Origin: Paramacrobiotus metropolitanus | Taxonomy: Eukaryota > Tardigrada > Eutardigrada > Parachela > Macrobiotidae | Reading direction: 5' to 3' | DNA: 64,000 nt | NCBI RefSeq assembly: GCF_019649055.1 | Contig: NW_026570233.1 | Span: forward strand, 868,001 to 932,000 | Shown here: positions 3,144 to 31,212 of the stretch, piece after piece | Numbering within the stretch: position 1 is the stretch's first letter | Layout of the letters: every line of letters starts with the position of its first letter | Made by a program: the position numbers and the translations under genes | The notes under the pieces: model-generated | Seen by the model: only the letters and a program-made list of their open reading frames with translations | Told to the model about the DNA's origin: nothing | Databases searched by the model: none

Positions 3144-3839
3144 TCATTTTGTCAATAAGATCAAGTCGGTTGGCACGATTATTTCCGTTGGCGTAAGGTA
3201 GGCCCTGTGACAATGTACAGTATCTCTGGCCTTTCGTCCCTGAATGCCACAACAGTATTGTCGGTATCCGTGCTGCTGGAAATGGTTTCTGCATGCATGA
3301 AAATATGCATAGAAGGACCCAATCAGTCGACGACAGCTCAGCAGTACTTCCTGCTCAGAACTACGCTTGATCCTCGAATGAGTAATCCTTTCAATCGGCA
3401 TCTCCAGATCGTGGGATGAGTTCTCTACTTCCTACGAAACCGACGGTTCTTGATTTCTGGCTCAGCTGAAGATGATTGACTTTAATATAAAAACGGTAAA
3501 TTTTAAGCTTCTTTCCAAGGTATCACACAGACAAAAAAACTGATTTGGTGAATTCATTTTAAAAATTGCTCGGATGTATTCGCCTTTTTTCTGCTTCCAT
3601 AATAATATATCACTATAATTATGCATGTCTATACATAAAAAGCCAGTTAATAATTTACGTACTTTAATTAACATTTGTCACACTTTTAATAATTTTGACA
3701 TCATTTAAACTGAAATTTAAGTTGGAACTGAGTGTACTGCAGCAAACCTGGGACATTGATTCCGGTTCTGAGGCCGTCGGCTTTGTCGCATCATTAAGGA
3801 TGGCAAGCAAAACCAACACGAGGATAGCAGAAAAAGCAT
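3144..3839 (-). CDS. Four-cysteine secreted prepropeptide, family member A (frame error in exon 1)
   Basis: Exon 2 (3431-3144) follows an acceptor TTTCGTAG and starts E-V-E-N in phase 0. It holds the convertase-type site SRIKR followed by S, then cysteines in LLSCRR, FHACRN, QYCC and VHCH with spacing close to x13 between successive cysteines, as in members C and D. Exon 1 (3839-3748) encodes a hydrophobic signal-like stretch ending SMSQ at the junction, just as the other members end in Q or R. The only ATG in exon 1 is one base out of frame with the hydrophobic reading; the offset lies at a run of five T. The C-terminus differs from members C and D and does not end in YTS. Either a real gene with a homopolymer error in the assembly or a young pseudogene. 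Donor GTTTGC is weak. Function not recognised; probably secreted and proteolytically matured. Confidence 0.55.
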
Positions 3840-4819
3840 GGCTGCTTTTTCTGCCGTTGGGGTTATGAATTTAGCTAGTGCTGGTGCTCACTTAACTCGC
3901 AAGCAACGTCATCTGGGCTAAATGCCAGCCTTATTACTGTATATACGAATTTGTACCACTGTTCGGCCCTAAAAAAAGGCACATGACGATGACGGCATTA
4001 ATGTTGAAGCCCATATTAACGGTTCACTTACTTCCGCTTGCAGTACGATATGCATCTTCCTTAAAGGTGTGCTTGCTACGCGACTTGTATCGTAAATTGG
4101 CATATTGTTTACTGTAGGTCTATCATGAGATCTACATAGGAATCAACAAACCAATCCAAAATTCTGACCAGGGCACATTTCCCGGGCCTACAATCAAAAC
4201 AGCTCATCTTTCGTAAAGAGGTATCATACTACCGTAGTCTGCTTTAAAAAATTATTTCATCTGCAGTGGTAGATGGGGCATGGCCAAAGAAAAATTAGAT
4301 CATACATATTCAAACTGTTATTGTTCAGTACCACAGATTTCCATTACCAAAGAGTTCAATACCAAAGATTTTTCGGAATTTTTTTATTTTGCGCGCATTG
4401 CATTAGATATGCTCGTGAACCGCTTGTCCTGCACTGACTTGGCAGATGCCACCGCTGCCAGATTAAATTTCTAAAACTTTGTTTGCAGTCCGTAGGCAAC
4501 GTTTTACGAGGTATGTACGAACACCAATGTTTTATTACACATTAGTCATTAACCAATAAAGTATTCCCAAAATTCGCAAAGTAGCTTATCAGCGCGGCGG
4601 CATAAATCAACGTGCATGAGATACAGATTCGTTTGGGCTGGACAACTGAAGCGTTTCATAGGCTCATCTAGTACAATGCACGCAAAATAAAAAAAAATCG
4701 GAGAAGCTGCTCTTACACTTTTTTTTCACAGCGTTACACTATTTTTATTTCGCGTTAAGAGCAACAATTTTTTTCACACATTCTGCATAAGTTCATGAGA
4801 AGCTGAAAAAACAAGCGAG
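3840..4819. other. Intergenic, no gene seen
   Basis: No reading frame with convincing composition or splice context on either strand; short frames here look random. Confidence 0.45.
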
Positions 4820-5101
4820 TTACACAGCAACATCTACGAGTACAAACACAGGCGGGCGAATAACAGAAAAGATTTCGTCTAAATTCGTCGCCGGTGGTGC
4901 TGTTCCCATAATAGATGCTGCGTTTCCTGGCTGAATTTCGATGCTGATCCGTTGACGCAAAAACTTTAGTGCTCGAGGTTCGCCTGATTGCTGCTGGATC
5001 ATCTTTCCTAGCACGTTAAACAGCCGGGTGGTTTCTGGTCCGAATGTTCCGTAGGTCTGGAAGGCCGCCATAAATGTGGTTACACCGATAGCCGATAGCA
5101 C
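4820..5101 (-). pseudogene. C-terminal fragment of a non-LTR retrotransposon reverse transcriptase ORF
   Basis: A 93-residue open frame contains the order FQTYGTFGPE, LFNVLGKMI, GEPRALKFLRQRIS, then IEIQPGNAASIMGT. This arrangement (aromatic/Gly block, leucine helix, 'GEPR..FL.QR.S..IQ.GNA') is familiar from the tail of LINE-type RT polyproteins in invertebrate genomes, beyond the palm domain. No catalytic core is present, so this is a truncated remnant. Its upstream end runs directly into a 54-bp hairpin. Family assignment is from memory of the pattern; a translated search would settle it. Confidence 0.5.
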
Positions 5102-5131
5102 ATTATAGCGCTATCGGCTATCAGTGTAACC
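5078..5131. repeat. 54-bp hairpin at the edge of the RT remnant
   Basis: Arms 5078-5099 and 5110-5131 are 22-bp reverse complements with one mismatch (GGTTACACCGATAGCCGATAGC), separated by 10 bases. Confidence 0.85.
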
Positions 5132-5817
5132 ATATTTGCGGCGTCCAGTGTATACGATAGTACCCTATCATTTTCCTCCCGCTGTACTGACTACTTAGAT
5201 TGTGCGTACATGATAGAAAGAAACACAATGTGTGCGATCTTTAAATTACCAAAAAGGTAGGCAAACCAAATTGTTTTTAATAACGTCATACTCAGTGTTC
5301 GCGCTACAGTAACAAAAAAAATATGGCGCTGCCTAGTGGCCAGTATCTACAAGTATTCATGACTATTTACGTACGTAATGATAAGTCCACCTGGCAGTTT
5401 TCGTACAGTTTCTAGATGAATGAGTATCACGTTACTCGTAGTCTCGTACCCTTTCCAGCTTTGAACTGCGTTCTATGGCATTAATTACTGTTTAATTACA
5501 ATCCACCTTTTATGCGCAGACCATCGTACGTTTGAACAAATTAGCTTACCTAACAATGGTAAAATAGTTCATAAAATAAAGCATAATTAAATTATTAATG
5601 CAACACAATTCGAGTTAAACTAATTTATGTGCATGTAAATTATCTGCTGTCGGCCCGTTTGCCGATTATAAGCGATAAGCCGGCTTGCGGGAACATGCTT
5701 CAACAAACGACAAACCGTAGAAGAACGCTACTGCTGGATGTACAATAGAATGAGCGACAGGTAACCATTTTCATCAAATTTAGACCGTTTAAGGTCTAAG
5801 GATGCCTGATAACTTTG
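5132..5817. other. Intergenic, no gene seen
   Basis: AT-rich; no supported gene. A TACTCGTA octamer lies at 5433-5440. Confidence 0.45.
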
Positions 5818-6064
5818 TCAGTCAGTTCAAGTATACGGGCGCGATCATTTCCGTTTCAAAAAGGACAATACGTGTCTGTTGCTTCGTCCAACATCGCCAC
5901 TCAGATGGTGTCGGTATCCGAGCTTCTAAAAGTGATTTCTGTATGTGCAAAACAGCTCATGAGCGATCCCGATAAGGGTGAGATAGGTTTCCGTCAGCCG
6001 AACTACAGTACGTGTCCATTCGGTGCCAGTAGCATCACCGACTCTGCTCCCTTCTTCAGGCTGA
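5818..6064 (-). pseudogene. Four-cysteine family member B, decayed exon 2
   Basis: After an acceptor TATATATTACAG (minus strand) the frame reads SQPEEGSR..., then LTLIGIAHELFC, TYRNHF, a stop codon, then KLGYRHH and SGDVGRSN, and another stop. This lines up with member A (FHACRNHFQQHGYRQYC, GIQGRKARD). At the DNA level the two loci share blocks such as GTGTCGGTATCCG. The first cysteine is replaced and two in-frame stops break it. No matching signal-peptide exon was found upstream, where the Ig gene begins. A relic of a duplication with member A. Confidence 0.5.
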
Positions 6065-6201
6065 CTGTAATATATACTTTTTAGATTTCTAAGGATTATA
6101 TTTGCGTTAAGTTTCGTAGCCATTTTTCGACAGTTAGCGGGCATATAAATTACACGCAAAATGTACCTGGTATTCCGCCTTTGTCGCCCGGAAAATGGTA
6201 T

Positions 6202-7046
6202 TCACACAACGTGGAGGTAGGCCGTCTGCATGAGCCACACCTCCCGCGTATAATCCGGCCGCACCCAGCACTCAATACGCGCCGTCGAGCGGGCCTGCAC
6301 CCTGGGCAACACCAGCGTGGTGGCGCGACGGCCCGTTGGACTGTACTCCACCCCGTACTCGGACACCGTATCCAGTGCCACAGCGTCGGGCGGGACGTAT
6401 TTGCGAAAGCTTCGCTGGCTGCTTTCTGGGTTAATAAATATCAAGGCGCGGAGCGGGTGCCTCTTGGGCGCCTCTAGCCACTGCCGGTTAAACCGCCAAA
6501 TGAAGCCAATGTGACTGTCGAACTGCTCCATGGGATGGGTGACGCTGGTCACGCACTGCAAGCGAGCTTCCGCCGCCCGACGAACGGTGACGTTAGGCAG
6601 CGGGATTGGGAAGAGTTCGCTGGCGGTGGGCGTCACCCGCAGACGGAAGGCTTGCAGCCGGCAGAATCGCAGCGGCTCATCTGGGCACGTCTGTTGGCAT
6701 TCCACTACGCCTCGGTCGCTCCACTTGGCGTTCTTCAGGATCAGAGTAGCGGCGGATGCCGGAATTTCTACGGCGGGACTAGCGTCATAGCGGGCCGTGA
6801 CATCAATGCTGTTGCTGCTGTTGACAGTCACCACTTGACCGTTATGTGCCCAGGCAATGTCCGGCATCACCGTAATGTTGGGAGTCAGTGGCAGAGGACA
6901 ATGGAATATAGCCTCGTCGCCAGAATTTGCCAACACAATGGGTAGGTTGTCGGCGGTGGCATTGGATTTTTCCTTGTTGTTATCAATCGGCAAATAAATT
7001 CTTCCGTCAACTGGATGACGAGCAGCATCATTCAGAATTTTATCCA
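6202..7046 (-). CDS. Two-domain immunoglobulin-superfamily protein (N-terminus unresolved)
   Basis: A single long exon opens after an acceptor (TCCTTTAG) at 7047 and ends with TGA at 6204-6202. It encodes two Ig-like domains. Ig1 has AIFHC, IAWAHNG and GVVEC; Ig2 has ARLQC, FIWRF and ARIECWV, giving the Cys-Trp-Cys core in each. N-glycosylation sites (NATA, NITV, NSSN) support an extracellular position. There is no membrane helix or GPI-type tail after Ig2, so the product may be secreted, or a further exon may be missing. The first exon was not placed: candidates upstream (for example an ATG near 7125, joinable in phase) lack a signal peptide. Likely a cell-surface recognition or secreted Ig protein; family beyond Ig not assigned. 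Confidence 0.75.
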
Positions 7047-8272
7047 CTAAAGGATTCACAAAAAAGTATGACCTACTGTACCAGTAAGGTACATCCGCAT
7101 TTACTCATAATAATTACGTCCATTATTGTACAGTGGACTTCGAAAATTACTTGACGTCGGACTGGGTAAGTTGCGCAATTTGATAAATCTGCCAGCGTCG
7201 CATTATTCTTAAAGGTCACTTTAAAGACAGTAATGACTAGAGTAACCCGGTATTATACAAGGACTTCAAAAATGTGGTTAAACTTACGTTACCACAAAAC
7301 GCGCGAAACCAGGCACTTATCTGTAATTTAGCACCAAATTCCGGGCTGGCCATCGGCCTGCTGATATAAACATTTGCACCTTGCACATTTCCCAATCGGA
7401 AATCATCAAACAATATCTTAAACGAATGAAAAAATGGCAGGAATTTCGACGCCAAACAGATTATCTTTTCGAGATATACAAAGGAATCGAGCTATTTAAG
7501 TTTGTCGTAGACAATGCATACGATTTCTGCGTGAAAACGGAAACTAAAACCGTTGATCCAAATCCTATGCTATGTCTACGAGAAACTTAAGGGCCTCCAT
7601 TTTCTCTTAGATCGCGTAAAGAAAAACCTGATTATTATTACCTCCTACCGAAACGAAGCGTCCGCGGCTTTAAAACAAGGTAAGTTGACCCCGTGCTGAA
7701 GCTGTTTTGGGAAAAGGCTTGGCTTGCTGTTTTGGCTTGCTGTTTTGGGGAAAGGCTAATACTCGGAGGAAAACTAAATCACTAACACCGCTTCCCTCTG
7801 TCGTCGCAAAGGGAAACGGTGCTCGTGAATTCGTATTGCTCCTTTTATTGAGTACAAAAGCTAGTGGAATGCTTGCTTCGGCTATTTTTTAGCATTTTCA
7901 ACAGCATAAAGCCATTTTGTACCCAAATTACTGTTGTGAAATTTTCCCTGCAGGCTGCAGTGCAACGGCTAAAATGTCGTTAGCACAAGCAGATCTCTTA
8001 TGGCGTCACATGTGTATTTATTACAACAAACAGACATCTGCTGTAGAATGGTCTTTGTAGTACCACTACCCGCTGACGTCGCATTAGATATTAGAGTACT
8101 TCATTCACGTAATAAGAAAGCGATAAGGAAGTAATGACGTAAATAGAAAGTTCGTTCTACTCTGTTACATGCAAAAGGGCAAGCAGGCACACATTCCTTC
8201 TTTGGTTAATGAATCGGTGTAGGCTGAGGTCAAAGAATACTAGCACTGTACAAATATTTTAAGATCACTCAC
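7047..8272. other. Intergenic or 5' region of the Ig gene
   Basis: No firm gene. Possible tiny exons near 7290-7325 (minus) cannot be joined convincingly. Confidence 0.35.
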
Positions 8273-8780
8273 ACTGTGCAAAAGTACATTCCCAACTTCC
8301 ATCTACGCACGCCAGTGTACTGGTTTCGCGTACTCTGCCGGTTTTTTGTACTGGGCATGCCAGACAAAAAAAGAAATTATGGGACATCCAGATCAGCGCT
8401 ATCATATACAAATTTAGGGCGAAGCCTCTTGGTTCGGCGAGCACGATCACGCGGTGGTTGAAGTGATCGGTGCAGTGCACCGGCCAACTTTTGGAAGCGG
8501 GCCAATCAAGCGCGTGTAGCGACAATGGATGCCGCAGTGCCATAAAGACAACTCCGAAACGGGCGGGACATACTTACTTCACGACTGTCGCTTACACTAC
8601 CAGTGGCCAGCGTGTTGCTTTATCTACAGGTGTTGACAGCGCTGCGACGACTGCAGATAAGAACATGCTGGCTTTACGACTGCACAGCCACCTACAGTGC
8701 AAACCTTCCTGTTTGTAAAGTGAAATGATGCTGCAGGCAGCAGTTCGCAGCCCGTTAAAAATGGCTCTGCAGACGTCGGA
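8273..8780 (-). other. Possible Cys-rich secreted-protein exons
   Basis: Two minus-strand segments have good splice borders. 8780-8578 follows GGTTTTGCAG and ends at a strong donor GTAAGTATG. 8350-8273 follows ATGCCCAG and ends at GTGAGT. The second reads TGRVRETSTLACVDGSWECT then FAQC, resembling a short disulphide module (pacifastin- or VWC-like 'DG.W.CT...C'). The first is Cys-rich in two frames, so its frame is undecided. No signal exon found. Either an unmodelled small gene or chance. Confidence 0.25.
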
Positions 8781-10142
8781 CTGCAAAACCAAGGCAACAA
8801 GGAGCAATACGCATCGCTAAGCAACAGCACTGCAAATTCAGATTCAACCATTCAAAAAAGGGAATTCCTAAGCACACCGATGGAAGCACTGCAGTTCTAA
8901 GCAGTCAGTTTTCAGGCAGATGCTGCACGGCAATTTAATGTCGCGCTCTAGTTACATAAAGGACAAGTTTCAAGCAATTTTCAAAGTAATTTAATTTGCT
9001 CTGCTGTACGTTGCTTTGCTGACGAAATAATCCTGTTTTGCATTACCACCACGTGCAGTTAAAAGAAGTCGTTTGCGCCTCACGCTGGTTGAAGGAAATG
9101 CTACGGCTGTTTTAAACCCGTTACCTTTTCATTCGTGAGAAGGCAGAGACTTTAGTGTTTTTTTTAAAATTTTAACTATCAAGTAGTGTACCGGTACCAG
9201 GCTAACAGCGCTCGCAGTTTTTAGTACGTGGCAGCTACTCGTATTGCCAAGTATAAATCGCATCTACTGACTGCATAGCGTAATACTCACTCCCAGTGAA
9301 GCATGGCTCAGCATCATGTTGTTTCTCGCCGCATGCTCATGGTGAAGCATGGCTTAGGTTGGCATAACTTGTAACCCGCAGACTTTTTCTGACAAAAAGG
9401 GCTTAAAATTCAGGAATATAATATGTGTACAATAACATGCAAAACACACATCCATGTATGGAGACGGGACCCCAAATAGTGATCGTAGCTGGAAGATGAG
9501 GCAATAATAAAATGCTCCTGAACTCACATTCTGTAATAATAATACTTTTTTGTAGTTGTTATAATTATAATACTGATAATAAGAAACTTAGGCAATCTTC
9601 TGTGATTAATATTTATCTTCGCTTCGCTCGATAAAAAAGAACAAGGACTGTACGATACTTTGTGAGATACGTGCGTACATACAGTACATGTACACTTTAC
9701 ACATATGTAGGCGTGCTGTTCTGCTCTGCTTTCTATTTAATACTGATAGCATTAATTACTGGTCAATCAGATTTTCTGTTTTCAAAAGCAGTTGCAATAA
9801 CCGACACATCACCGCAACCAAAGTCCAACGGTTCCAATGTATACTGTGTAGCATCAGAAGATCAAGCGCGCAGTTGCCCGTTAAGAGTGGTATTTTCATG
9901 CCGTATGCCAGACGGAAGATGGGTTCGAAGCTTTGTTTCCCGTGGGCAAATACGCCGAACATGACCGGAAACGGGCCCCAGCCATCAGATGGAATGGGAA
10001 AACATATAACAACAATAACAATAACAGCGCCTAATGTAAAACTGCACCCTCTGTTTTGCCATTATCTTCTTCACTGCGCCGTGGCGTATCTGTTCACTGC
10101 ATTACATATATAATATTAATCTGTACTACAGATACACCGTGT
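8781..10142. other. Intergenic, no gene seen
   Basis: Short frames on both strands lack motif, splice or composition support. TACTCGTA occurs at 9236-9243. Confidence 0.45.
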
Positions 10143-10206
10143 CCATTCATTTCGGCCACCATTCGTTTCGGCCGCTATTTATTTCGGCCACCATTCATTT
10201 CGGCTT
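10143..10206. repeat. Four tandem copies of a 16-bp unit
   Basis: Unit CCATTCATTTCGGCCA repeated four times with one to three changes per copy. Confidence 0.85.
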
Positions 10207-10393
10207 CAAAAGCTAGGTTACCCAGTTCGATTTTCAGTTTTAAACCTGTTGGCCTAACATTGTTAGGCTAACAATAAAGTGCGAAATTCGAATGCAAGCG
10301 TTGCTTTTATTTCTTTATGTTTGTTTTCTTATGCTTATGTTTTTTAATGTCGCTAGACACACATGGATCCCTGGATGATTGATTAATTTTGCC

Positions 10394-10491
10394 GCTCTAA
10401 ATTTATGCCTTGTTTTACACTTATCCCTATTCTAATACACCATGGTTTATTAGAATATGGATAAGTATAAAACAAGGCATAAATTTAGAGC
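10394..10491. repeat. 98-bp hairpin
   Basis: GCTCTAAATTTATGCCTTGT and its continuation are repeated in reverse complement about 45 bases on, with NcoI-like CCATGG at the centre. A further direct copy of AACAAGGCATAAATT follows at about 10499. A smaller stem (GTTGGCCTAACA...TGTTAGGCTAAC) lies just before, near 10247-10272. Confidence 0.8.
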
Positions 10492-11418
10492 TAAAAAAAC
10501 AAGGCATAAATTCAGGATAAGTATAAAACTCTTAAGATTTCAAGAATTAAACTTAGATACTCGTATTGGCGATTATAATACCCAAAAAGCGCAAATACAA
10601 TATTGCTTTTTGTGAAAACGAAGCCAAAGCGTCGTCTACACAGCAACTTTCTGCCTGTCCGGCGTGGCCGCGACAGCAGCGCCGCTTTCGTGAATGCTTG
10701 AATTTATAGCCGACACCCCTGCTCTTCCACAACCTAGCGCATGCCCAAGCTAATCTGAATCCACAAGACCGCGCCTGCATGCACGGCCGGATCTCTTCGA
10801 AAAGGCATGTGTCGGTCTCATTTCCGGTTTACACGCGTAGCTGAAACAAAGACCCCTAACTGTAGGTGCTGAGAAAACCTATTTTTTACCAGGCGACGCA
10901 TGGGCGGCATGTACATATGAGGAACAGTGAAAGGATGGGGACTGAGTCACCGATTACGTTAGCTGTACCGGCGACTCACGTATTATGTATCGCCTATCCA
11001 AGCCTGTGGTGCACTGCCAGTAAGAGCTCTAATACATGTGACGAACCGGTGCTATTATTTATATAATGAAACTTAATACCCTTGTGACCTTGTCGATAGC
11101 ATGTCTTACAAATTTATAATCGATTATTTGCGCATCAGCAGCAGTGCTTAGAATTAAACAACATCGGGGAAGCGGTGATGGTATAAGTAAATACGTGCAA
11201 AGTATAGATCATATATTCTATATAATACATGCAATATAAGAAAGCCATTACACACACAAATGATATAGCTATATCATACTTGCAATTAGAAAAGTGCCCG
11301 AAAAATGAAATGTTGCGGATTAAGTCGGATGGTTCATACTAATTGTATTTATGATACAGGTATATGTTTACAAGCCCAGCACGGATGAATATTGGCCGAT
11401 GACTATTAAAAAACAAGT
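10492..11418. other. Intergenic, no gene seen
   Basis: No supported gene between the hairpin and the 1.1-kb repeat. Confidence 0.4.
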
Positions 11419-14577: not shown

Positions 14578-14760
14578 CGGCCCCGCTGCGCGGGGCCGAG
14601 TCGAAATATTTAGAAATATTTAGAAATTCTGGAAATGTAAAAGCTCTGGAGCCGACTTTGAAAAAATTTATAGTTCTTTTGAGGTATTCGAACATGTATT
14701 TAAAAACATCTCAAAGGTTTTAAGAATTAAAAAGAAAATATAATTTTGATGGAATTGACA
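14578..14760 (+). repeat. Third partial copy of the 1.09-kb repeat
   Basis: Continues from the right palindrome arm with CGGCCCCGCTGCGCGGGGCC, then matches copy 1 from about 12270 to 12420 (GGAAATGTAAAAGCT, GCCGACTTTG). Confidence 0.75.
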
Positions 14761-19440: not shown

Positions 19441-21446
19441 GTCTTTCATTCGCGGCACATCTGCCCAACTCGAACTGCACTTACAACGGAAATCAGCTTA
19501 ACTACTTGGAACGAAACCTTAATATTCCAGCAGATTTCGATGTCAACCTGGTACTGGGCTCTACCAAAGAGCTACTGCCCATGTGCCCAACTATGCACAG
19601 TTCTCATAGTGACACACTTCGCGAACAAAGCGAACCTCTTCTGTTCCGTGACGCGCTTACCGCTGTCCGTTTTTATGGATTCTGAACAACCGCAAATGCG
19701 ACACTGTATCCTTATTTACGGTTTGTACAAAATGTTAAACATCAGTTAACGTGGTTTCAGATAGAACGTAGTCAAGTTGGATATTTGGATAACGAGTTTT
19801 TCCGTGGATTTCGTCCGTTGAATACCGAAAAACTTACCACAACGACACAGAGACAATTTCGCCCGGCGCATTTTAGCTACTAACGTATCCTCTGGTCCCA
19901 GCACTGAACATTGGCATTGCGCCAAAATTGGCATTTATCTCTCTTCAGGGCAAATTAATAATGGAAATTGCCTGGTCGGTCTTCGAACCATTGGCTCAAA
20001 ATTTGGTAAGCTAGGTATATTGCATCGCATTTGCGTTCGTCTGCTGTTACTTAAACCATATCATTTATACGGATAATCATTTACAGTATTTGCGTTTATA
20101 GGAACATCTACATCTTAACCAATGGGCTATCCGGTCAATGGAGCGGAGCGGCATACACTTTACATTATCATTAGTTTCTCTAAGAATGTCCCAGTTTGGT
20201 CTACCAACAATTCCAAAGAGCGTCCTAAGCACGCTAACCCCGCGAGATCCCATCGCGCCAAGTTTGGCGCAGCAACCCACGAATCGGGACTGGAATTTCT
20301 GGACGCCTAAATTCTGTCCGTCAAGCAGCAACTGCTCCTGCTGCGAAATGAAAGATTTTTTGGAATGGGCCGGAAAAATTAACAAACCTACCAGCCAGCG
20401 TCCGGTCAGCGTACTGTTCATGTGTGGTGGCGCTAACGGAGTAAATTATAATCAGACCTCCCAATTTCCGCTCGATCTTCATGCTCAGTGTAAGTGAGCA
20501 ATATAACAACAAGCTATACGAGCAATATAACAACTCAACTTTTTACTGTAGTTTATGCGCGTTATTTGTATACTGTCAGCGTATCCAGAAATATTTAGGA
20601 TAACGTTTAAATTTCATAGGCGCGGAACCAGTGAAGATATCCAAGCCCGTTGTGTGTTATAAACCGCCTCCGATCAAAGTGGAATGCACCGGCAACTTAC
20701 ATGTGACAACCAGCGAACCGAATCTACGCCGAACCGATGCGGCATCCCTTAGTGTATCGGCTGACAGTAGTTTCCGTTGTCGGACGTTTTTGTATAATAT
20801 CCATTCTAAGATTCTACAAATGGCCGAAGAAGGCAAAGAAGTCAATCAAACCGCACCGCGGACAGTCACCGCAACGTGCAATAACGGGATGATTAGCGCT
20901 GATATGTTTGATGCTTATGCGGCTGATGTTACGAAACTGACATTCGATAGCGATGCAAGCACAAACTGCCGAGACAAATTCGACTTGTTTCTAAATTTCG
21001 TCTACGCACAGAAAGATCCACAGACTCTTTACGAGGACGTGGTACCAACCATCATTCCTGTTGATCGCTGGATTAACGAGTTTCAGATTTGCTCGGATAC
21101 ACCTCCATTAACGCTCTCCTGCAATGGTGCCATCGGCTGCATTCCCGAGAATTAACATTTCGTCGCATAACTCCACAAAGCTGCTGTTTAAGACAACCAG
21201 GTTTTCCACTGCAGGAAAGCACTGAAGAACATTCATAAATATCTGCTCGAACAAAATAATACGAAAGTGGAAGATGCCGTGGAGCAAAACCATACAGACC
21301 CCCTGATTGTGGTGTGTCAGAAAGGTCAAACCGTGATATCGCACGGAACACAGGAACAATCCACATTTGCCAATATCGAATACTACGGTACTCCGCACCG
21401 GATCAGCTGTGCCGCAATGCTTTTGGTAAATTTGTTAACCGTTTAA
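19441..21446 (+). CDS. Cys-rich N-glycosylated secreted-type protein, repeated domain; breaks in 5' part
   Basis: The best exons are 20102-20489 and 20620-21155, joined in phase through GTAAGT and TTTCATAG and ending in TAA. They encode many Cys (NCSCCEMK, FMCGG, VVCYK, CRTF, CSDTPP, GAIGCIP) and N-x-S/T sites. A further coding block at 21198-21446, after acceptor ACAACCAG, starts VFHCRKALKNIHKYLLEQNN and resembles the preceding exon from FRCRTFLYNIHSKILQ, suggesting two copies of one domain; its donor is unresolved. Upstream, 19441-20013 is coding-like in one frame (SNCTYNGNQLNYLERNLNIP) but has a TGA near 19683 and a shift at a TTTT run near 19872. A decayed copy of the 3' part lies at 25.1-25.7 kb. 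Family unknown. Either a gene with assembly errors or one beginning to decay. Confidence 0.5.
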
Positions 21447-22076: not shown

Positions 22077-22365
22077 CTAAGTATTATGATCGTTTTGGTA
22101 AATGGTCAATGATGAAATAAAGTTTTTGTAAATACGGTTCTTATAGTCGTCAATATCTTTGAATGTGCGTTCGGTGTGCCACAAACAGCTGCTGCCTTTC
22201 CTGTGACCGCTCCTAAATTTAAACGCTGTCTCAAATAGCGGTTTAACGAGGCTCCCCGATATCTTCACGGATCTTCCGGTTGGCGAAGCGGATGAACTTG
22301 GCAAAAGCCGTCTCGATTAATGAGATGCTGTGGTTGCTATCAACGGGTGTTTCCTTTAGATCCAT
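22077..22365 (-). CDS. Small basic protein or exon, split by a frame shift at GGGG
   Basis: ATG at 22365-22363 opens a frame reading MDLKETPVDSNHS then IETAFAKFIRFANRKIREDIG. It leaves frame at a run of four G near 22255 and would stop. The neighbouring frame continues SLVKPLFETAFKF and RTFKDIDDYKNRIYKNF to a stop at 22077. The two halves have the same amphipathic, basic character, and a one-base change at the G run would give one frame of about 95 codons. No family recognised; it may be a fragment of a larger gene. Confidence 0.3.
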
Positions 22366-23973
22366 GGCGCATATCCTAACATAGACAGTCATGAGAGAGG
22401 GTTTTTTCCAAGGTGATCCTGCAATTTTGCTGCAAAAGCCCAGTTTTTTTTGGCAACAGCCGACAGCGTATACCGGCCCACCATAACAAAAATGAGTTGT
22501 CAGTTAAAAAGTACGTAAGTATATCGACAGCATTGCACGATTAACTATGTCGTAGAATTACGCAGCAGTTAACTTTATATTTTTATTCCATTCACTCTCG
22601 CTGATTTCGCACGCTATAGTACTGTTGAATTTTTAAAGAAGTAAAGCTTATTTGAGTTCTTACGTTGCCAGACTGGAGACCCCAAATCACAGGGGACATC
22701 TCCACACATAAATACTTTAGCCTTGAGAGTGATATGTGGGCTTTAACTATGTATAACAACCATGAGCTTTACAGGACAGCACAGAAAGGTCAGCCGGGCC
22801 TTTTAAGGAATCTGTTTTGCTGTAGATGATAAATTTTAGTAGGTTTTTACTTGTTGGATAAACAAATTGGCAAACCAAATTAAGTTAGATTACAAGATCG
22901 ACCAATAACCTAGCAGTCTTGACCACCATTTGATAGCAATGAAAGGTCGGTTAGGTTTAGGAAAATTCTTGCAGTCGATAAGCTCTTGAGCGCAGGTTTT
23001 ACAAGTGCCATTTCTGGACGGCTTGAACGACAGTTCTGTTCCGCGGTTATTTTAGCCTGCTGGCCGGTATTAAAGTTATCTTAGATGCGTATGTTTTATG
23101 CGCTGCTCTGATCACTTACTGTGGCCATAATATGGAATATTCATTAATTCCGTTAGCACGCTGATCAGCGCTGATTAAAACAGACGCCTCTAAAAGCTTA
23201 ACACTTATTGCGCTATACAGTTTTTTGCTCCGATAAATTTGTTTTTATGTTAATTGTTTTCGAAATCTTAAGTCGAAGTCTTTTGGCATTTGCTTGCCTC
23301 ACTGAAAAAGTTGTTCAGTTGAAAAGAATGGAAATGTGTTATTTTTATTAGAATATAATAATCTCTATGCAACCTTACAGTGACGATTTTTTGAAGGTCA
23401 CCTTGAAGTTTGAACTTGCAGTTTCACCGATCATACCGGCATGATGGCATCTGTTGGACTAATTCCTGGCAATTCTTTTGCAAACAAAAATGCATGTAAC
23501 ACAGCTTCCGAAAACCTACGCTGACTCGGATATCATTACCAGTTTCTTGATTAATTTTTTGGTTTACTCCAATCCGGAGGTTACGGGGTAGTTATATAAT
23601 AGATGTGGTTTCTTGATCCAGAAATACTATGGTATAAACATGACACGTTCCAACTTTTCCAGACCACTGTCTTCCGTATTGTCAATCAATAGGATCATGA
23701 TTTTCTACGTATACTAGGACGCAGTTATCATAAATTTGGCACATATCAGCTGGATCAAGTTTCTTGTAAAACTGTGACACGGCAACGCACTATAAAGGTT
23801 AATTATTTAATTAACAATAATTCAGACGTTGACGATTACAGAAGCCCAGGTGATAAGCCGGTAGGTTGTACGACATGGAAACGCTGGTTACGTTACGTTA
23901 GCGAAGATCTACACCGATAAAAGCGGAAAAGCGCGTTGTATAGACAATTCAAGCGTTTGCAGTAGGTTTAAAA
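22366..23973. other. Intergenic, no gene seen
   Basis: 1.6 kb without a supported gene or repeat. Confidence 0.45.
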
Positions 23974-24406
23974 TTACTTTCGGCCAAGGTACCAGTTGCT
24001 GGTCGGCAGGGTCTCACTCGATGGCAGCGCACTGGGCGGCACCAATGAACTGTACTGGTGCTTGACTGACGAAGTGCGTTCCGACTTCAATGGTTGCAAT
24101 TTTAAAAGGGCACGTAGATCTGCCGATGACGCAATGGCATTATCGGTGATTGGTTGGCTCAGAAGAAGCAGTAGATGGTCATCTTTAAACTGTCGGCTTG
24201 TATGGTCCTGGCGTTTTTCGACGGCAGAAGGTTCGACTGTAATTATTTTGTTTCAGAATACTGACAGATTTCTTAAGAATTCCCACACTCTGTAACTTAC
24301 CTCTTCGCACTCGCTCTAACGAAGTTTTAAGAGCACACCTGCATCCATCGATGGAGAATGCAACAAAAAACATCGTCAAGCACAATTTAAGTAGTACTGT
24401 GGACAT
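23974..24406 (-). CDS. Neuropeptide-like prepropeptide with amidated C-terminus
   Basis: Two exons: 24406-24301 and 24236-23974, about 122 residues. Exon 1 has ATG, a signal peptide (MSTVLLKLCLTMFFVAFSID) and ends at a near-consensus donor GAG/GTAAGTT. The 64-base intron ends ATAATTACAG and phase 1 is kept. Downstream of a dibasic VRR comes AVEKR, then a peptide starting with Gln (candidate pyroglutamate) and running about 75 residues to SNWYL-GRK-stop. Gly followed by two basic residues at the very end is the classic signal for C-terminal amidation. This combination is what a secreted, PC-processed hormone precursor looks like. I do not recognise the WYL-amide ending or the overall sequence. 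A TATA box lies at 24557-24564. A chemoreceptor-like remnant ends just upstream on the same strand. Confidence 0.65.
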
Positions 24407-24556
24407 TTTCGACAGTGTGAGAATAAGTAGCAGTAGCACACCGGAAAGTAACACGTTGATAATTCTTAAATTGCTTGGACTAATGCAAACTTCTCTTCTC
24501 GTCTAAACTGCCGTATTTTCAGTCTTACTGTGTAGGGTGTACCGCCTAGATTTGCC

Positions 24557-24564
24557 ATTATATA
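24557..24564 (-). promoter_or_regulatory. Candidate TATA box of the neuropeptide-like gene
   Basis: TATATAAT on the minus strand, about 150 bp upstream of the ATG, leaving room for a 5' UTR of about 120 bases. It overlaps the stop codon of the chemoreceptor-like remnant. Confidence 0.4.
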
Positions 24565-24966
24565 CGCTGCTCATCAAATCCCCTGTCGAGAGCAGCTAGA
24601 AACGTCTTAATGTCGCGCGGCTGTATGCGTCCAATTTCCATCAATAATTCGTTTTCTACTTTGTAAGAAACCGTCAGAAACGCGATAATTGGGCCTACTG
24701 TGTAAATATTTAACATGTCTCAGAAACTGCAATTTTGTAAGAATATAATCAAAATGTCCACGGGAAGCTTGAGTCCTTCGACTACGTCATTTAAATATTT
24801 AATGTTAATTGCTCTGCAATTACCGCTGCACCGACTGCGGAAAATTCCCGCTATGAGAGGGCAGGTTAGCGAAATATCATGCATGACAAATGGCGCATAG
24901 AGAATAAGCCGTTGGATGCTGAAGAGTTCCGACATAGCGCGGCCGCAGCCATACATTTCAAGCTCA
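24558..24966 (-). pseudogene. Chemoreceptor-like (gustatory-receptor type) C-terminal remnant
   Basis: Minus-strand frame: ELFSIQRLILYAPFVMHDIS, then LKLPVDILIIFLQ, a TGA, then MLNIYTVGPIIAFLTVSYKV followed by MEIGRIQPRDIKTFLAALDR and a stop. The order (short helix, last membrane helix, then a polar tail with G-R-I and an amphipathic helix) parallels the 3' end of the intact gustatory-receptor-like gene at 41.4-43.2 kb (FSMLLYQME, GRIDMG, DLPKFLDDIRNGI). The TGA may be removed by an unmodelled intron; otherwise this is a truncated copy. No N-terminal part was found; DNA further upstream holds another pseudogene on the other strand. Confidence 0.35.
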
Positions 24967-25111
24967 TCTATGCCATCAGACTTTCTGATGACCATACGCA
25001 TATTTAGATGATTGCGTCAATCATTAGTACATTACGGTTTTGAATAGTAAGAGTTAATGTCTTGGCTATTTTCTGCTTCATACTCGTAACAATGGCGTGC
25101 GATATATGTAT

Positions 25112-25655
25112 ATGGGAAGCTTATACCGCTGACGTTACGAAATTGACCTTTCGTAGCGACTCAAAAACAATCGCGCGCGACAAGTTCAACCACTTTTTGA
25201 ATTTTTTTTTTCGCACAAAAGACCCACAGACTCTTTACAGCAGCCATCATTCCTGTTGATCGGTGAATTTCAAGCAAACAAATTTCATGTTTGCGCGGAT
25301 ACACCTCCATTAACGCTTAAAAGGTAGATGCAATGATGCCGTCGTGCATTCCCGAGCATCGGTATTCAATCGAATGATCCACAAAGCTGTTGCTTAACAC
25401 TAACCAGGTTTTCCACTGCGGGAAAGCATTAAATGGCATCCATAAAATTAATGTCTGCTAGAACAGAAACAGAATAACACGATAGTGCAAGATGTTGAGG
25501 AGCAGTGCCATAGTGATTCTACAATGGCGGTGTGTCAGAAAGGTTAAATCGTGCTTGCATGAAGTACCGGAACAATCCACATTTGCCAATATCAAATACT
25601 GCTCCGTACCGAATTAGATATGCTCGCAACGCTTTTGCCAAGTTTATTAATCACT
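25112..25655 (+). pseudogene. Decayed copy of the 20.9-21.45 kb gene
   Basis: Protein-level match AYTADVTKLTF, RDKFNHFLNF and KDPQTLY to the intact AYAADVTKLTF, RDKFDLFLNF and KDPQTLY. DNA matches continue downstream: CTCCATTAACGCT, ACCAGGTTTTCCACTGC, GTGTGTCAGAAAGGT, GAACAATCCACATTTGCCAA. Indels and stops break every exon. A segmental duplicate in the same orientation, about 4.2 kb from its source. Confidence 0.7.
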
Positions 25656-26050
25656 TAACCACAGTATAAAATACCCGATCAGTGCTTGAATGAGATACTG
25701 TATATATCATGTGCGAATTCAGTCAATTCACGCGCAAATTCGATAGTACTCGTACCTTTGGAAAGCATTGTTTTATGATGAGTTTTATCCACTTGCTGCT
25801 TTTGTGCGTAATTGTGCGTATTTATTACTTTCTGAACCAGAAGTTGTTTGATTACGTAAAATTAATTTATTACATTTCATTATTGCCAACTGATTTTACT
25901 ATCAAAGCAACGTAGCACAAAACAACCAATGAACATTTTGCATTGCTTAGGAGTGCTATATAAAAAAACATACTTATTGCAACACATTTACACCAGCTAC
26001 CAGCAAGACCGACGTCGTGAGAATGTGAGAACGACAATGGCATGCGCAAA
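25656..26050. other. Intergenic, no gene seen
   Basis: AT-rich; holds TACTCGTA at 25747-25754. Confidence 0.4.
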
Positions 26051-26734
26051 TTAGGATGTATAGCGACTCGTAATGTACTTGCTATAAATGTCCATCAGGT
26101 TACTGCGATCGTTTCCGCTGGTGAAGCTCAGACACGTGGTGAAAATCGTCCTGGCGCTGTTGTCCACATCCAGACATTGGGAATGCCGAGATCCGGTTTT
26201 CTCATAGGTGGCCTTACACAGGAGCCACAGCTCATACAGGTTTGTGATCTGCTCGCGGCACATTATGGTCAAATCGGCGGCGGTCACATCGCGTTTTATT
26301 CGCTGAGGAGAGACGCTGGCCGATGCCAGTTGTAGAGCGCTCGACAGTTTTGTTATTTCCTGTAATACATATCTCACATTAATATTAGACACTGGTTGTC
26401 ATTGCAAAAAAACTAACAATGTGTCCTCTAGAAATAACTCTTGTAAGGAATTAGGAATACTAACATCTAACTTATTCTAACGCGCTGGCAAACTTTAAAA
26501 CTTTTTTCCGAAACCGATAGTGCGATTGAGTGGTACAGGTTTGACGGTTATACAACAATACAAAAAGATATTAGAAGGTATGTAAAGAAAATTTTTTTGC
26601 CTTTATAGCGGACTCTCTCAATACGATATTGCACCCACCTGTGTAAGAGCTTGGTCTGGCTGCTCCATTAGATCGGCGGCGGCGTACCCCACAGCTATCG
26701 ACACGAGGAGGACTGCAATAAACCTGATCGCCAT
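26051..26734 (-). CDS. Four-cysteine secreted prepropeptide, family member C (intact)
   Basis: Exon 1 (26734-26639, 32 codons) encodes signal peptide MAIRFIAVLLVSIAVGYAAA and ends ALTQ at donor GTGGGT. Exon 2 (26359-26051) follows GTATTACAG and gives 102 residues plus stop; total 134 aa. Residues EITKLSSALQ start the propeptide, and QRIKR followed by D is a furin/PC-type site. The mature part has cysteines in TIMCRE, LLCKA, SQCLD and TTCLS, each pair separated by exactly 13 residues, and ends in SRYTS. Member D on the opposite strand shares this architecture throughout. A TATA box lies at 26873-26880. Predicted as a secreted, convertase-matured protein of about 85 residues with two disulphides; the family is unknown to me, and a hormone, defence or matrix role is open. 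Confidence 0.8.
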
Positions 26735-26872
26735 CGTACCGTTAAAAATATTGGAGAACTGGAAATATATACTGGAGATCGAACGAAATATACTGGAGAA
26801 CTTAGCTGCTACTGCAAAACAAGAAAAAACTGAATTGTAACGTTGGATGCCTAACTGCTTATGCGGAATTCT

Positions 26873-26880
26873 GTTTTATA
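26873..26880 (-). promoter_or_regulatory. TATA box of member C
   Basis: GGAGTATAAAACAGAATTC on the minus strand. The same neighbourhood is recognisable upstream of member E, where the TATA is altered to TTTAAAA (GGGAGTTTAAAAAACTGAAT). Confidence 0.55.
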
Positions 26881-26884
26881 CTCC

Positions 26885-27905
26885 TTTTGCGGCCACATGA
26901 ATGAAAACATCACTGACGACATTTTCAAAGTTTTTGCATAGATTTCCGTGGCGTGTTATCCTGTTTTTGTAGCGCGATGCTTATCTCCAGTGCATGTATC
27001 GAGGCCACTGACGCCGGGTGATGTAATTAGTAAAGTACGAATCGGCGCTCCCAGTTAACAAGCAGATCGCAAAACCAGATACCTATTCACAATGAGGCTC
27101 CATATAGATTTCTTTATACGGTTGTTAAAGTACTCGTACTGACAAACATTACCATTAGTCAAAATAGTGCATTTGTCAGTTAAAATTAATGCAATAACAC
27201 CATTAAGTATCCATAATTATTACCAATAAGCGCGGCAGGCGTTTAGACACTAATGCTTTCACATTAGCTTTGGAAAGCAAAATCAAAAAGAATAAAATAG
27301 AAACATAAATTAAAGACTGAAACTCTGAGTAGCACTGGCTCAAAACTTATTGTGCCTAAATGATCACAAAATGCTCCAACAGTTTTGACACGGTAAACAA
27401 TGACTACCTTGCAGGCGCTGTGTCAAACCGCAAATACCAACAGTTTTTTCAAAGATTTTATTCTAAAACTATGCGAACTTCTAGCTGCGGTAACAGGCAA
27501 AAATAGGTTTATGAATATTATAAATGTTTGGCAAAGCACACATTCTGAATTTTCAAATGCCTTCGTTCTAGTTATTAAAAAGACTTTCCGCCTCCAGCCA
27601 TAAACAAAGGGGATCAATTATTAAAATTATATTAATTGAATTATTTAAGTAAAGACTATAAAGCTAACGTTTCCAATCTATACTTCTGCATTACTTCGCT
27701 CACAAACATAATATTGGATGATGTCATATTGATTAACCTTTGCTTTTGGTTAACCTTTGTCCCACACCCAGTGCTTTTTGCGTAATAAAGTCCAGTAGGT
27801 CATGACTCATGACATCATCCGTAACAAAAACAAAAATAACATAATACACCCAAAAGCACCTTTGGATATCGTCGTCACTTCTGTGTTACACCTTTCCAGA
27901 TCGAC
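26885..27905. other. Shared upstream region of divergent members C and D
   Basis: About 1 kb between two divergently transcribed paralogues. A 67-codon frame at 27400-27603 is not supported. TACTCGTA at 27131-27138. Confidence 0.4.
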
Positions 27906-27908
27906 TGG

Positions 27909-27916
27909 TATATAAA
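27909..27916 (+). promoter_or_regulatory. TATA box of member D
   Basis: TATATAAA, with a candidate initiator TCACA about 28 bases downstream and the ATG at 28033. Confidence 0.55.
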
Positions 27917-28032
27917 TTAAACGTTCCACCATTGAAGTCACAACTGCATTACATTGCTCACTATTAATCGTTTGACTATTACGCCTGTATTTACTGTAAT
28001 TTGATCAAGCACGATCTCGATTATCACTGAAA

Positions 28033-28740
28033 ATGGCAGCAAAGTTTCTAGTGATCTTCCTGACCGCAGCAATTTTTGCCTATTTTGGTGTCTTCGCTAA
28101 GGGAGTGCCCCAGGATGCTCTCGCACGGGTTAGTGCAACGCTTAGTACAGTCTGCATTTTTGACGCTTTTTGTTTTGGTTGTACAAAGTGCATTAAAAAC
28201 ATTCTGAGTAGATTTGCTATCGACCTTTTTCAATTTTTATCTACGAGTAGTCTTCGTCCACCATCCGATCGTGACTACAATCTTAGCGGTTTACAAACTT
28301 CGCTTCTGCCTTTTATTTAATGGAACGTAAAACTTTTGATTCTACAAAATTCACTGTAGATCTAAACTGCCAGCGAAAGCAGACCATCATAATTAACCGA
28401 CACTGCTGTTTTGCAGAAAATCACGACTTTGTCCGACGCTGTGCATAACGCTTTCGCCCACCGCGATCTTCCGCGGACCAAGCGCGAGACGGTGACTCTG
28501 GAAATCAGCGAGGCCAGCATGCCCGTAAAATGCCGCGAGACCGTCACGGCGCTACAGGAGTTGTGGCTACTGTGCAAGGCCTATTACCTGCGTCTGGGTT
28601 CCCGGTACTCCGGATGCAACGATAAAGACAGCGACATGAAGAGAACATTCGGCATCTGTCTGACCTACAGCAATGTGGCTGATCGTGAGAACCTGGTGGA
28701 TATGTATAGTAATTTCATAAAATATCAGTACACTTCTTAA
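28033..28740 (+). CDS. Four-cysteine secreted prepropeptide, family member D (intact)
   Basis: Exon 1 (28033-28128) encodes MAAKFLVIFLTAAIFAYFGV and ends ALAR at donor GTTAGT. Exon 2 (28417-28740) follows CTGTTTTGCAG; total 139 aa. The propeptide is followed by PRTKR and then E, matching the R-x-K-R site of member C. Cysteines sit in PVKCRE, LLCKA, SGCND and GICLT with 13 residues between each. The tail YSNFIKYQYTS matches YSKYITSRYTS of member C. Exon phase (0) and position are conserved across the family. Identity to C is moderate, so these are old paralogues still under constraint. Divergent arrangement with C could allow joint regulation. Function unknown; secretion and proteolytic maturation are inferred from motifs. 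Confidence 0.8.
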
Positions 28741-29685
28741 TGTAGCTGTTTGACCTTTATCTGCCTAATTTACTAGCTCGATTGTTGCAACAGTCAGTGT
28801 TGTCGCTCTTTATTTATACTGCTTAATGGTGCGGCCTTTCCTGAGTTTCCTGGGTTGTAATCTTTGTGTATAAACATAGGTACTCGTTAAGGTACCAATT
28901 TTGCATTAAAACCGATCCTTAAATGTAAAGGCTTCTTATTATCGTTACTGTGATCCCTCTTATTCGAAGGATTTCGGATTACAGCTATGCTGCCTGAAAA
29001 AATGTGAATAAAGTCAGTGCAATAACGCTCTGCTATGTCACTGAATTTTTCTTATTTGCGGTATTGCTGAAAATGCAGTGTATTCACTCCAAGTTATCAC
29101 CAGAACTTCAAACGGCAAACTGAAATTTTAGTTAGTTATTACTCAAATGGTGTTCAAAAACGTGCGCGATTCTACTAAAGCATATTATACTGTAGGCAAG
29201 CGCTACAGTAATGCCAGGCAAACTGCATAAAAAGTCCTTGGCATAACTAAATTCCGCTGAGGCCATCTTGTATTAATATTAAGTACGTATTTGAAAAAAT
29301 ACTTCCATGAAAAACACCACAAACTGCACAACTAAAAAAAAGTGCATAAAAGCTGCATAAATTTTTGCAGTACAATATGCATAAAATCTTGCTCAGAAAT
29401 TCGCTTGAACAGCCAGATGCATAAGTACAGTAGGTAATTCTATAAGACTTCCATAAAGGCCTACGCAAGAACCTGCATAAATAGGCATCTGCATAAATAG
29501 ATAGTTTTTGCATACTTGTAAGCGATTTTTCTGAATAAAAAATTTGTTTTCTTTTATTATGTCAAGCTGTAGTTTGTTTGTCAAGCTGTATCGCATCAGA
29601 GCATCTGTAGTACATGATGTACATCACAATACAATCTATGAAAGACTCTGATGATCTGATCACTTTCCTTGACATACTCGTAATT
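28741..29685. other. Intergenic, no gene seen
   Basis: 3' flank of member D and of the pseudogene beyond. Many CATAAA/GCATAAA words near 29340-29500, but no clear tandem repeat. Confidence 0.4.
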
Positions 29686-31212
29686 TCACGCTGTCCAAGC
29701 ACCAGAATTAAAAGTATTATGTCCAGACGCAATATCAACTAGGGTGCACCTGACCAATGTTATGATGGCAAAATTAATTTGATGTAGCGAGAAGAATCGA
29801 CTTGCACGATACCTGTACTGTTGAGCATGTATGAGGATCGTGTGATACTTGCTAAAGATGTCCAGCAAGTCACTGCGATAGAGTGAGTGGTTACTCCGCT
29901 AGTGTAGCGTAGACCTCTGCTGAAGTATTGCTGGACCATGCCGGCCAAATTCAACATGCGGAATACGTGGATCCGTTGTCTTCGTAGTAGGATTTGCACA
30001 CAACCCACACCGAGTACATATTCACGATGACCTCCAGGACAGTTCACGGTGTCAGTTCACGGTCGCAACGTCGCTTTTCACACGGGGATCAGGAGAAGGA
30101 GAAGAAGGAGGAGAAGCGTTCACCGATACCAGTTGCAGAGCGCTCGCTAGCATCATTATCTCCTGTACAACATAGCTGAAATTAGGCAGTGATTTTGATG
30201 ACAGACAAGTTAAGGGAAGTGGGCCGGTACATGGTACCAAATTCGTGTACATGCACAACAACTTACACTTTCGCTCCCTCCCAAACACATTTTTGTTTCG
30301 GTTTATGACATTCTATAGCCAAAAGGTTTGTATACACTGGTGTGAAAACCGTTTGTGCGCGCAACATCCAGTTCGGGAGTTATGGCTGTTAGAAAATTCC
30401 AAAAGGTTTAAATGCATTCAGGTGTACCAAAAGTCTCATTATGAACCGATCTCCCTCGAATTTTGCACGTAAATGGACATAACCACGAAGAATGTTTTAC
30501 ACCGATCCACCGTTCTAGCATGTTTTTCAAATTTAATTTAATTTCAAAAATTTTAAAATTCGTTTTAAAATTTGAAAAAAATTATGGAAGTCTGGATCGG
30601 TGTAGAAACGATCTTCATGGACATGCGCATTTACGTGCAAAATTTGAGGGAGATCGGCCCATAATGAGACTTTTGGTACACCTGAATGCATTTAAACTTG
30701 TTGGAATTTTCTAACAGCCATAACTCCCGAACCGGATGTTGCGCGCACAAACGGTTTTCACACCAGTTTATACAAACCTTTTGGCTATAGAATGTCATAA
30801 ACCGAAACAAAAATGTGTTTGGGAGTGCGCGAAAGTGTAGTTTTTGTGCATGTGCACGAATTTGGTACCATGTACCGGCCCACTTCCCTTAATTACATCG
30901 GCACCTGGGAATGTTGATCAAGAAAGCTGCAATCGGAATTATTCTCACCCGTTGGTTAATTGTGTCTTGTACTTGAAAGCACCAGTAACCAGTTATGAAA
31001 TGTAATATTAACTGCACTTTTTGCTGTCGAAAAAATTAGTAGCATCAAGTTTCACCTGCTTACACAAAAATATAACGAGGAACTTGAACTGATTTGAGCA
31101 TGGACTGTCTTGATGTAGCGTTCACTTGTGCGAGAGCGCATTGTAGGGTCCCCACCGCAGCGTATCCGACAATAATCGGCACCAGGAGAATTGCGATAAA
31201 CTTAACCGCCAT
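29686..31212 (-). pseudogene. Four-cysteine family member E, broken, with a transposon in its intron
   Basis: Exon 1 (31212-31126) is still intact: MAVKFIAILLVPIIVGYAAV, ending ALAQ at GTGAAC, phase 0. Exon 2 (from 30165) starts EIMMLASALQLVSVN after TTGTACAG and has PRVKS in place of QRIKR. It then shifts frame: WVVCKSYYEDNGSTYSAC followed directly by a stop in one frame, and SDLLDIFSKYH in another, matching SNLMDIYSKYI of member C. The intron carries the foldback element at 30210-30892. The promoter TATA is degenerate. Several independent lesions make this a genuine pseudogene rather than one assembly error. Confidence 0.7.
30210..30892. mobile_element. TTAA-flanked foldback transposon, 683 bp
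   Basis: Ends are TTAAGGGAAGTGGGCCGGTA and its reverse complement TACCGGCCCACTTCCCTTAA. The arms stay paired for roughly 300 bp each, including TTTGTTTCGGTTTATGACAT, GTGCGCGCAACATCC and CTCATTATG..CGATCTCCCTC, and meet in an AT-rich centre near 30540-30580. No transposase ORF. TTAA at both borders is the target-duplication hallmark of piggyBac-type elements, so this is probably a non-autonomous piggyBac-like MITE. High arm identity suggests a recent insertion. Confidence 0.85.

Follow-up and report, generated by a model that had tools for sequence, protein, structure and literature searches.

A family of predicted secreted four-cysteine prepropeptides in the tardigrade Paramacrobiotus metropolitanus

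Introduction

Five loci, here called A to E, lie in one stretch of 64,000 nucleotides of the Paramacrobiotus metropolitanus genome, which was analysed at full length and is referred to as the window. They raise the question whether they belong to a single family of secreted peptides and, if so, of which kind. We found that C and D together with relatives elsewhere in the genome form a genuine family of prepropeptides predicted to be secreted, and both the family and its gene plan are well supported. As to its nature, the main reading is that its members are small signalling peptides, secreted, resembling hormones or cytokines and restricted to one lineage; we assign this a probability of about 0.5.

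Two intact genes and three broken copies in the window

Genes C and D are intact and divergently arranged, as the first-pass annotation of this DNA had stated. Exon 1 of gene C (26639..26734, minus strand) contains the start codon and a hydrophobic signal segment and ends in ALTQ at the phase-0 donor CAG/GTGGGT, with a TATAAAA box at -146 from the ATG. Its exon 2 (26051..26359, minus strand) encodes the propeptide, RIKR and a mature peptide of 79 amino acids with the spacing C-x13-C-x13-C-x13-C, followed by the stop codon. Gene D has the same two-exon organisation on the plus strand: exon 1 (28033..28128) runs from the start codon through a hydrophobic signal segment to ALAR and the phase-0 donor CGG/GTTAGT, with TATATAA at -124, and exon 2 (28417..28740) encodes the propeptide, RTKR and an 84 amino acid mature peptide, again with the exact 13-13-13 spacing, up to the stop. 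Both were training members of the family profile, against which they score 120.2 bits (C) and 116.0 bits (D). Read in six frames, the window contains the strict C-x13-C-x13-C-x13-C pattern twice, in C and D, where 60 second-order Markov simulations averaged 0.017 occurrences, with 1 as the highest count.

Locus A had not been counted among the broken copies, but it is not intact. Its exon-1 remnant (3748..3840, minus strand) is a hydrophobic frame ending in Q, with phase 0 at 3748, and no ATG is present from the upstream stop to the hydrophobic part. Its exon-2 remnant (3124..3431, minus strand) carries RIKR and the cysteine part in one frame and the tail homologue, GNNRANRLDLIDKMITNDYTD, in another, which marks a frameshift. 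Against the family profile the first part scores 27.2 bits (E 6.3e-7, Z = 3000), and the tail reaches 7.9 bits, which is not significant alone. We place A in the family because of this profile match, its RIKR site and its exon start. When A was used as a protein query against the genome, it matched nothing but itself, and the DNA alignment of A and C scored at null level.

That B and E are broken was borne out. B (5806..5945, minus strand) is degraded and related to A: the DNA alignment of the two scores 43, and the highest null score among 300 resamplings was 25. Nothing exceeded the null in DNA alignments of B with C or with D, and B has no match of its own to the family profile; judged by the alignment, it is a remnant of A's kind. 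E consists of a relative of C exon 1 (31126..31212, minus strand; DNA score 51 against 31 for the null) and an exon-2 remnant (29951..30162, minus strand; DNA score 59 against C exon 2, null 29), in which RVKS replaces RxKR and three TGA stops interrupt the mature part. One piece of it matches the profile with 25.5 bits, and no TATA box was found upstream of exon 1. E is a remnant of C's kind.

Further members and the family signature

The family had been described as comprising five loci. The shared plan is real and the count was incomplete, as searches of the own genome revealed five further intact relatives on three other contigs: F (contig C213), G (contig C6) and H1, H2 and H3 (contig C31), the last three forming a second cluster alongside a frameshifted copy, H4. 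The intact members are therefore seven (C, D, F, G, H1, H2 and H3), spread over four contigs. A search of the genome with the profile consensus gave nine matches, none of which is a new member besides the seven and H4. Profiles from which the member in question had been left out recovered G with an E-value of 5.4e-8 and H2 with 9e-6, where Z is our own estimate of 2.2 million frames. A profile built from H1-H3 alone misses G (E 12) and D (E 38).

The 13-13-13 spacing, proposed as the defining signature, is found in C, D, F and G, and H1-H3 have 13-12-13 instead. Invariant in all seven are R-x-K-R, the four cysteines, one glycine, and an L, a D and a Y of the tail, whose motif DRxxLxxIYxxW/Y forms the C-terminal segment of most members. 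Mature peptides are 71-84 residues long with a net charge of -1 to +1 in every intact member, and paralogue identity to C is 21-45%.

A phase-0 intron ahead of the propeptide is clear in six of the seven, exon 1 of F being tentative, and the mature part lies within a single open exon in all of them. By inspection, each has an N-terminal hydrophobic segment (in F again within the tentative exon 1). The rule that the signal exon ends in Q or R does not extend to the family, since exon 1 ends in A in G, in N in H1 and in T in H2 and H3. A TATA-like box is found 94-146 bases upstream of the ATG in all seven genes, compared with 15% of 4,000 random stretches of the window.

R-x-K-R stands behind the propeptide in all seven intact members with x being I, T, A, N, V, V and D, a variation which is expected if selection keeps the protease site itself. 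Such a conserved basic cleavage site after the propeptide characterises convertase-processed secreted peptides. It bears on the proposal that these are structural or storage proteins of cuticle, egg or gut lining, whose cysteine staple would serve only to keep the protein stable during drying. Small disulphide-rich secreted proteins are frequent in such layers, but a conserved convertase-type site and a short single mature peptide are atypical of matrix proteins, and we consider this explanation very improbable.

Selection

Purifying selection acts on the mature part in four close pairs out of the five compared. For C-D, the pair for which this check had been suggested, pN-pS is -0.206 and 0.5% of 2,000 codon bootstraps (a fraction of 0.005) are at or above zero; the fractions for C-F, H1-H2 and H2-H3 are 0 of 2,000, 0.002 and 0.0185. 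In the H1-H3 pair purifying selection is not significant (0.142). The C-D propeptide is looser, with a dN/dS of 0.81 over 19 codons compared with 0.47 for the mature part. Values above 1 were obtained in several comparisons between subfamilies (D-H1 1.88, C-H3 1.38) and for some of the short propeptides (H2-H3 2.11 over 16 codons), which we read as saturation, differing third-base composition and small numbers.

These patterns bear on a further explanation, in which the peptides are secreted defence or reproductive effectors that act on microbes, mates or food and whose clustered genes diverge and decay. Both clusters contain broken copies (A, B and E in one, H4 in the other), adjacent copies lie on opposite strands and identity among paralogues is low; divergence and frequent pseudogenes would also fit defence or reproductive secretions. 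Typical antimicrobial peptides, however, are cationic and lack such purifying selection, whereas the mature parts described here are roughly neutral and conserved in most close pairs. We regard the effector explanation as rather unlikely.

Searches outside the family

No Pfam family was matched above cut-off by any of the seven intact members (best sub-threshold E 0.022). Among the sequences of solved structures, no significant match was obtained with a four-member profile (best E 0.75), with a seven-member profile (a Rop variant at E 0.25, the bc1 hinge subunit at E 0.55) or with H3 alone (best E 0.8). Scanning the viral_contigs and genome_contigs collections with the mature part of C gave 16 and 72 pattern matches, respectively, of which none was confirmed by tblastn; these are viral and prokaryotic contigs, so the result is silent on other tardigrades.

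Two weak pieces were taken as chance matches, one on contig C60 (E 0.0113) and one on contig C20 (E 0.047), each with one stop and without the four-cysteine pattern. Scored against the seven-member profile, the C20 piece reaches 16.3 bits (E 0.0016, Z = 3000), so that its exclusion is not clean.

In the literature, judged by title or start of abstract, no description of the family was found, and absence from print is not claimed. Tardigrade peptide precursors were reportedly treated by Koziol in 2018. Separately, the telomere repeat GATGGGTTTT, described for Hypsibius in a passage of PMC6797769, has no match in this one genome, a result that speaks neither for nor against a tardigrade origin.

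Comparison with known cysteine-stapled proteins

The statement that no named family carries this signature stands as far as significant Pfam and solved-structure matches are concerned, but the same spacing is present in the bc1 hinge subunit QCR6/UQCRH. In PDB chain 9f5x_1I the C-x13-C-x13-C-x13-C cysteines are at 17, 31, 45 and 59 of the aligned segment, a spacing shared exactly by C, D, F and G. We take this subunit to be a helical hairpin with C1-C4 and C2-C3 bonding and to lack a secretory signal and a convertase site; it has two cysteines more than the four of the family. With a profile E-value of 0.55 no homology is claimed. An hhalign comparison of the family with the single hinge segment scored 15.6; among 150 cysteine-preserving shuffles three reached this value, and among 150 full shuffles one did. 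The occurrence of 13-13-13 in the hinge makes a disulphide-stapled hairpin a reasonable guess for the family.

According to passages in PMC8452992, QCR6/UQCRH resides in the intermembrane space. The hydrophobic N-terminus (by inspection) and R-x-K-R of all seven members would speak against a protein of this type. An unusual twin motif, CX13C/CX14C, is found in Mix23 (PMC8452992; table in PMC5404111). Like other twin CXnC proteins, Mix23 is an intermembrane-space protein recognised by Mia40 and not secreted, and its likeness to the family lies in the cysteine motif.

The other comparison is the CHH/ITP superfamily, of which the family could be a degenerate branch that lost two of six cysteines and re-paired C1 with C3. 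C2, C3 and C4 would then presumably correspond to CHH cysteines 26, 39 and 52; the ITP-type protein encoded in this genome has x12, x12 between them. CHH/ITP precursors similarly comprise a signal, a propeptide, a basic cleavage site in most members and a cysteine-stapled peptide of about 70-80 residues, so that precursor plan and size are alike and the spacing of three cysteines is similar. In an hhalign comparison with four CHH/ITP sequences, of which three are partial, C2-C4 align with those cysteines; two of 150 cysteine-preserving shuffles and none of 150 full column shuffles attained the score of 14.3, but the probability is only 1.2% and the single hinge segment scores slightly higher. 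The genome carries an orthodox ITP-type gene (contig C11, PF01147, 51.6 bits), whose intron near mature residue 40 is absent from all seven members. None of them matches PF01147 at E <= 10, although few matches with E beyond about 0.1 pass the HMMER filters. Passages in PMC7560641 describe long CHH/ITP forms that are likewise non-amidated, but also six conserved cysteines in three disulphides as the invariant signature, compared with four in every member of the family. The resemblance appears weak, and descent from CHH/ITP seems quite unlikely to us.

Proposed nature and significance

We infer secretion, cleavage, bonding, fold and a signalling role for these peptides as follows. The chain would enter the secretory pathway through the exon-1 signal peptide, and a furin/prohormone-convertase-type protease would cleave behind R-x-K-R to give the mature peptide of 71-84 residues. 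Two disulphides, C1-C4 and C2-C3, would hold it, the likeliest fold being an antiparallel helical hairpin with arms C1-C2 and C3-C4 and a turn at the conserved glycine, joined by a third, C-terminal segment. Chou-Fasman propensities lean towards strand rather than helix in several stretches and do not separate the two, and crude moment calculations do not settle them either, which bears on the helical bundle suggested in the first-pass annotation. The free, non-amidated and roughly neutral peptide would bind an extracellular partner. Birth-and-death evolution is the best reading of the family's history: copies would multiply in small clusters and frequently decay.

A more specific version of the signalling reading, which we consider unlikely and offer as speculation, is an undescribed family of peptide hormones or cytokines, restricted to tardigrades, with a secreted helical hairpin of the twin-CX13C type as its fold, either reinvented in the secretory pathway or derived there from a CHH-like ancestor by a disulphide swap. 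To our knowledge, this staple geometry is otherwise known only from mitochondrial intermembrane-space proteins.

Surveys of peptide hormones mostly rely on similarity to known hormones, and a family without outside relatives would therefore be overlooked. With seven intact members and a clear cleavage site, a role in moulting, drying or reproduction is directly testable, and the 13-13-13 staple would provide a simple, naturally occurring framework for stable peptides.

Gene plan and family members

The loci C (26734-26639 and 26359-26051, minus strand) and D (28033-28128 and 28417-28740, plus strand) have the plan proposed in the first-pass annotation: two exons with a phase-0 junction, an R-x-K-R site and four cysteines separated by three gaps of exactly 13 residues. 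Within the window the strict C-x13-C-x13-C-x13-C pattern is found in C and D only, and it occurred on average 0.017 times over 60 simulated windows. With gaps of 12 or 13 there are three occurrences, and because this count reaches the simulated maximum (3, mean 0.35), spacing alone is weak evidence for the locus A (3124-3840, minus strand).

The window is C13:868001-932000 of the species' own assembly (533 contigs, 169,799,020 bases), in which the Hypsibius telomere repeat had no match. We searched this assembly with exon 2 of C and found D (46%), F on contig C213 (43%) and G on contig C6 (28%, E 0.0016). F as query led to contig C31 (E 0.021), where reading the DNA and more searches gave H1, H2, H3 and the frameshifted H4, with the second exons of all four spanning about 6 kb. 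A consensus query of the genome found no additional members. Member counts are lower bounds, with at least seven intact members (C, D, F, G, H1, H2 and H3).

To test homology across the clusters, the members under test were left out when the profiles were trained; Z was our own estimate, and the cysteines add to the scores. These profiles found G (E 5.4e-8), H2 (9e-6), H1 (6e-4) and H3 (0.0099). In the reverse test the H1-H3 profile recovered F (1.7e-4) and C (0.022) and missed G and D (E 12 and 38). All seven intact members have R-x-K-R, C, C, G, C, C-L, D and Y in common, and six possess a phase-0 intron between the signal and propeptide exons; exon 1 of F has more than one possible join. 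The tree places H1-H3 apart from C, D, F and G with moderate support (92/95, no starred branch), and G forms a long branch. The family and its gene plan are well supported.

TATA-like boxes and selection

A TATA-like box lies 94-146 bases upstream of the ATG in 7/7 intact members, compared to 15% of random window stretches. Selection between C and D had been named beforehand as a test that could speak against the family, and their mature parts are under purifying selection (dN/dS 0.47, bootstrap 0.005). The same holds for the mature parts of C-F (0 of 2000 bootstraps, dS saturated), H1-H2 (0.35, bootstrap 0.002) and H2-H3 (0.49, bootstrap 0.0185), and is not clear for H1-H3 (0.75, bootstrap 0.142). 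The C-D propeptide is looser than the mature part (dN/dS 0.81, 19 codons).

Ratios above 1 were found between subfamilies (C-H2 1.08, C-H3 1.38, D-H1 1.88, D-H2 1.63, D-H3 1.05, G-H3 1.07) and in some propeptide comparisons of 16-19 codons (C-F 1.38, H2-H3 2.11), and these go against a simple story. We leave them uninterpreted, because synonymous sites are near saturation in these comparisons and third-base G+C is unequal, ranging from 0.52 to 0.88.

Remnants in the window

A had been described as sound, which was not borne out: it is without a start codon before the hydrophobic part and has a frameshift before the tail. The case for A as a family member consists of the profile match (27.2 bits, E 6.3e-7 at Z = 3000), together with RIKR and the start of the exon. 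Used as a query against the genome, A matched itself only, and its DNA alignment to C is at null level (17 vs a null maximum of 28).

B (5806-5945, minus strand) and E (29951-31212, minus strand) are remnants, as the first-pass annotation had it. B aligns to A at the DNA level above the null (43 vs 25) and is not recognisable by DNA alignment to C or D. E aligns to C above the null (59 vs 29), carries RVKS in the RxKR position and has no TATA box upstream. Its intron contains two near-alike frames in opposite orientation (30176-30472, plus strand; 30631-30888, minus strand), which by eye look like a fold-back or inverted-repeat insertion.

Neighbouring sequences

A second, much larger cysteine-containing family has at least 100 matches in the genome, and a Pfam scan of one member gave no match at E <= 1. 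One copy lies at 20604-21152, 4.9 kb from C, and seems interrupted downstream of 21152; a fragment lies at 25110-25241, 0.8 kb from C, and another copy at C31:1008121-1008477, 1.6 kb from the H1 second exon. That its copies adjoin both peptide clusters was noticed post hoc; it suggests either a block of old origin common to the two clusters or a functional connection. None of the matches listed is near G, which is at 0.67 Mb on C6 (matches on this contig: 2.8-2.9 Mb), and the match on C213 is about 80 kb from F.

By eye, exons at 32576-34167 (minus strand) resemble a cAMP-dependent-type protein kinase catalytic domain, and a 300-aa frame at 6202-7104 (minus strand), adjoining B, resembles an immunoglobulin-domain cell-surface protein.

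Predicted processing and fold, and comparison with known families

We infer that the precursor has a signal peptide and a propeptide and that a convertase cut probably yields a mature peptide of 71-84 residues with two disulphides; the net charge of this predicted peptide is -1 to +1. No amidation signal, a glycine before basic residues, was seen at the C-terminus. When solved structures were searched with the family profile, the bc1 hinge subunit QCR6/UQCRH (PDB: 9f5x_1I) came up at E 0.55, which is not significant; its cysteines 17, 31, 45 and 59 of the printed segment have the same 13-13-13 spacing. The hinge subunit is a helical hairpin with outer-outer and inner-inner bonds, from which C1-C4 and C2-C3 pairing of the four cysteines would be predicted. 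Hydrophobic moments calculated for a helix are larger than those for a strand in the first arm of 6/7 members, the second arm of 5/7 and the tail of 4/7; secondary-structure propensities are ambiguous, with strand often favoured.

The CHH/ITP peptide hormones have a similar precursor plan and partly similar spacing. Aligned by hhalign, the family scored 14.3 against CHH/ITP (reached by 2/150 cysteine-preserving and 0/150 full shuffles) and 15.6 against the single hinge segment (3/150 and 1/150), and neither score is evidence of kinship, because the single segment outscores CHH/ITP. Six cysteines are described as invariant in the CHH/ITP superfamily in PMC7560641. The family has neither these six cysteines nor a PF01147 match nor an intron in the mature part, whereas an orthodox ITP-type gene of the same genome (G000:C11:413915-414763; PF01147, 51.6 bits) has an intron between its fourth and fifth cysteines. 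The family may act like a CHH/ITP hormone and is not classed as one. Its members are predicted to be secreted prepropeptides, and we regard it as a genuine family for which no match has been found so far.
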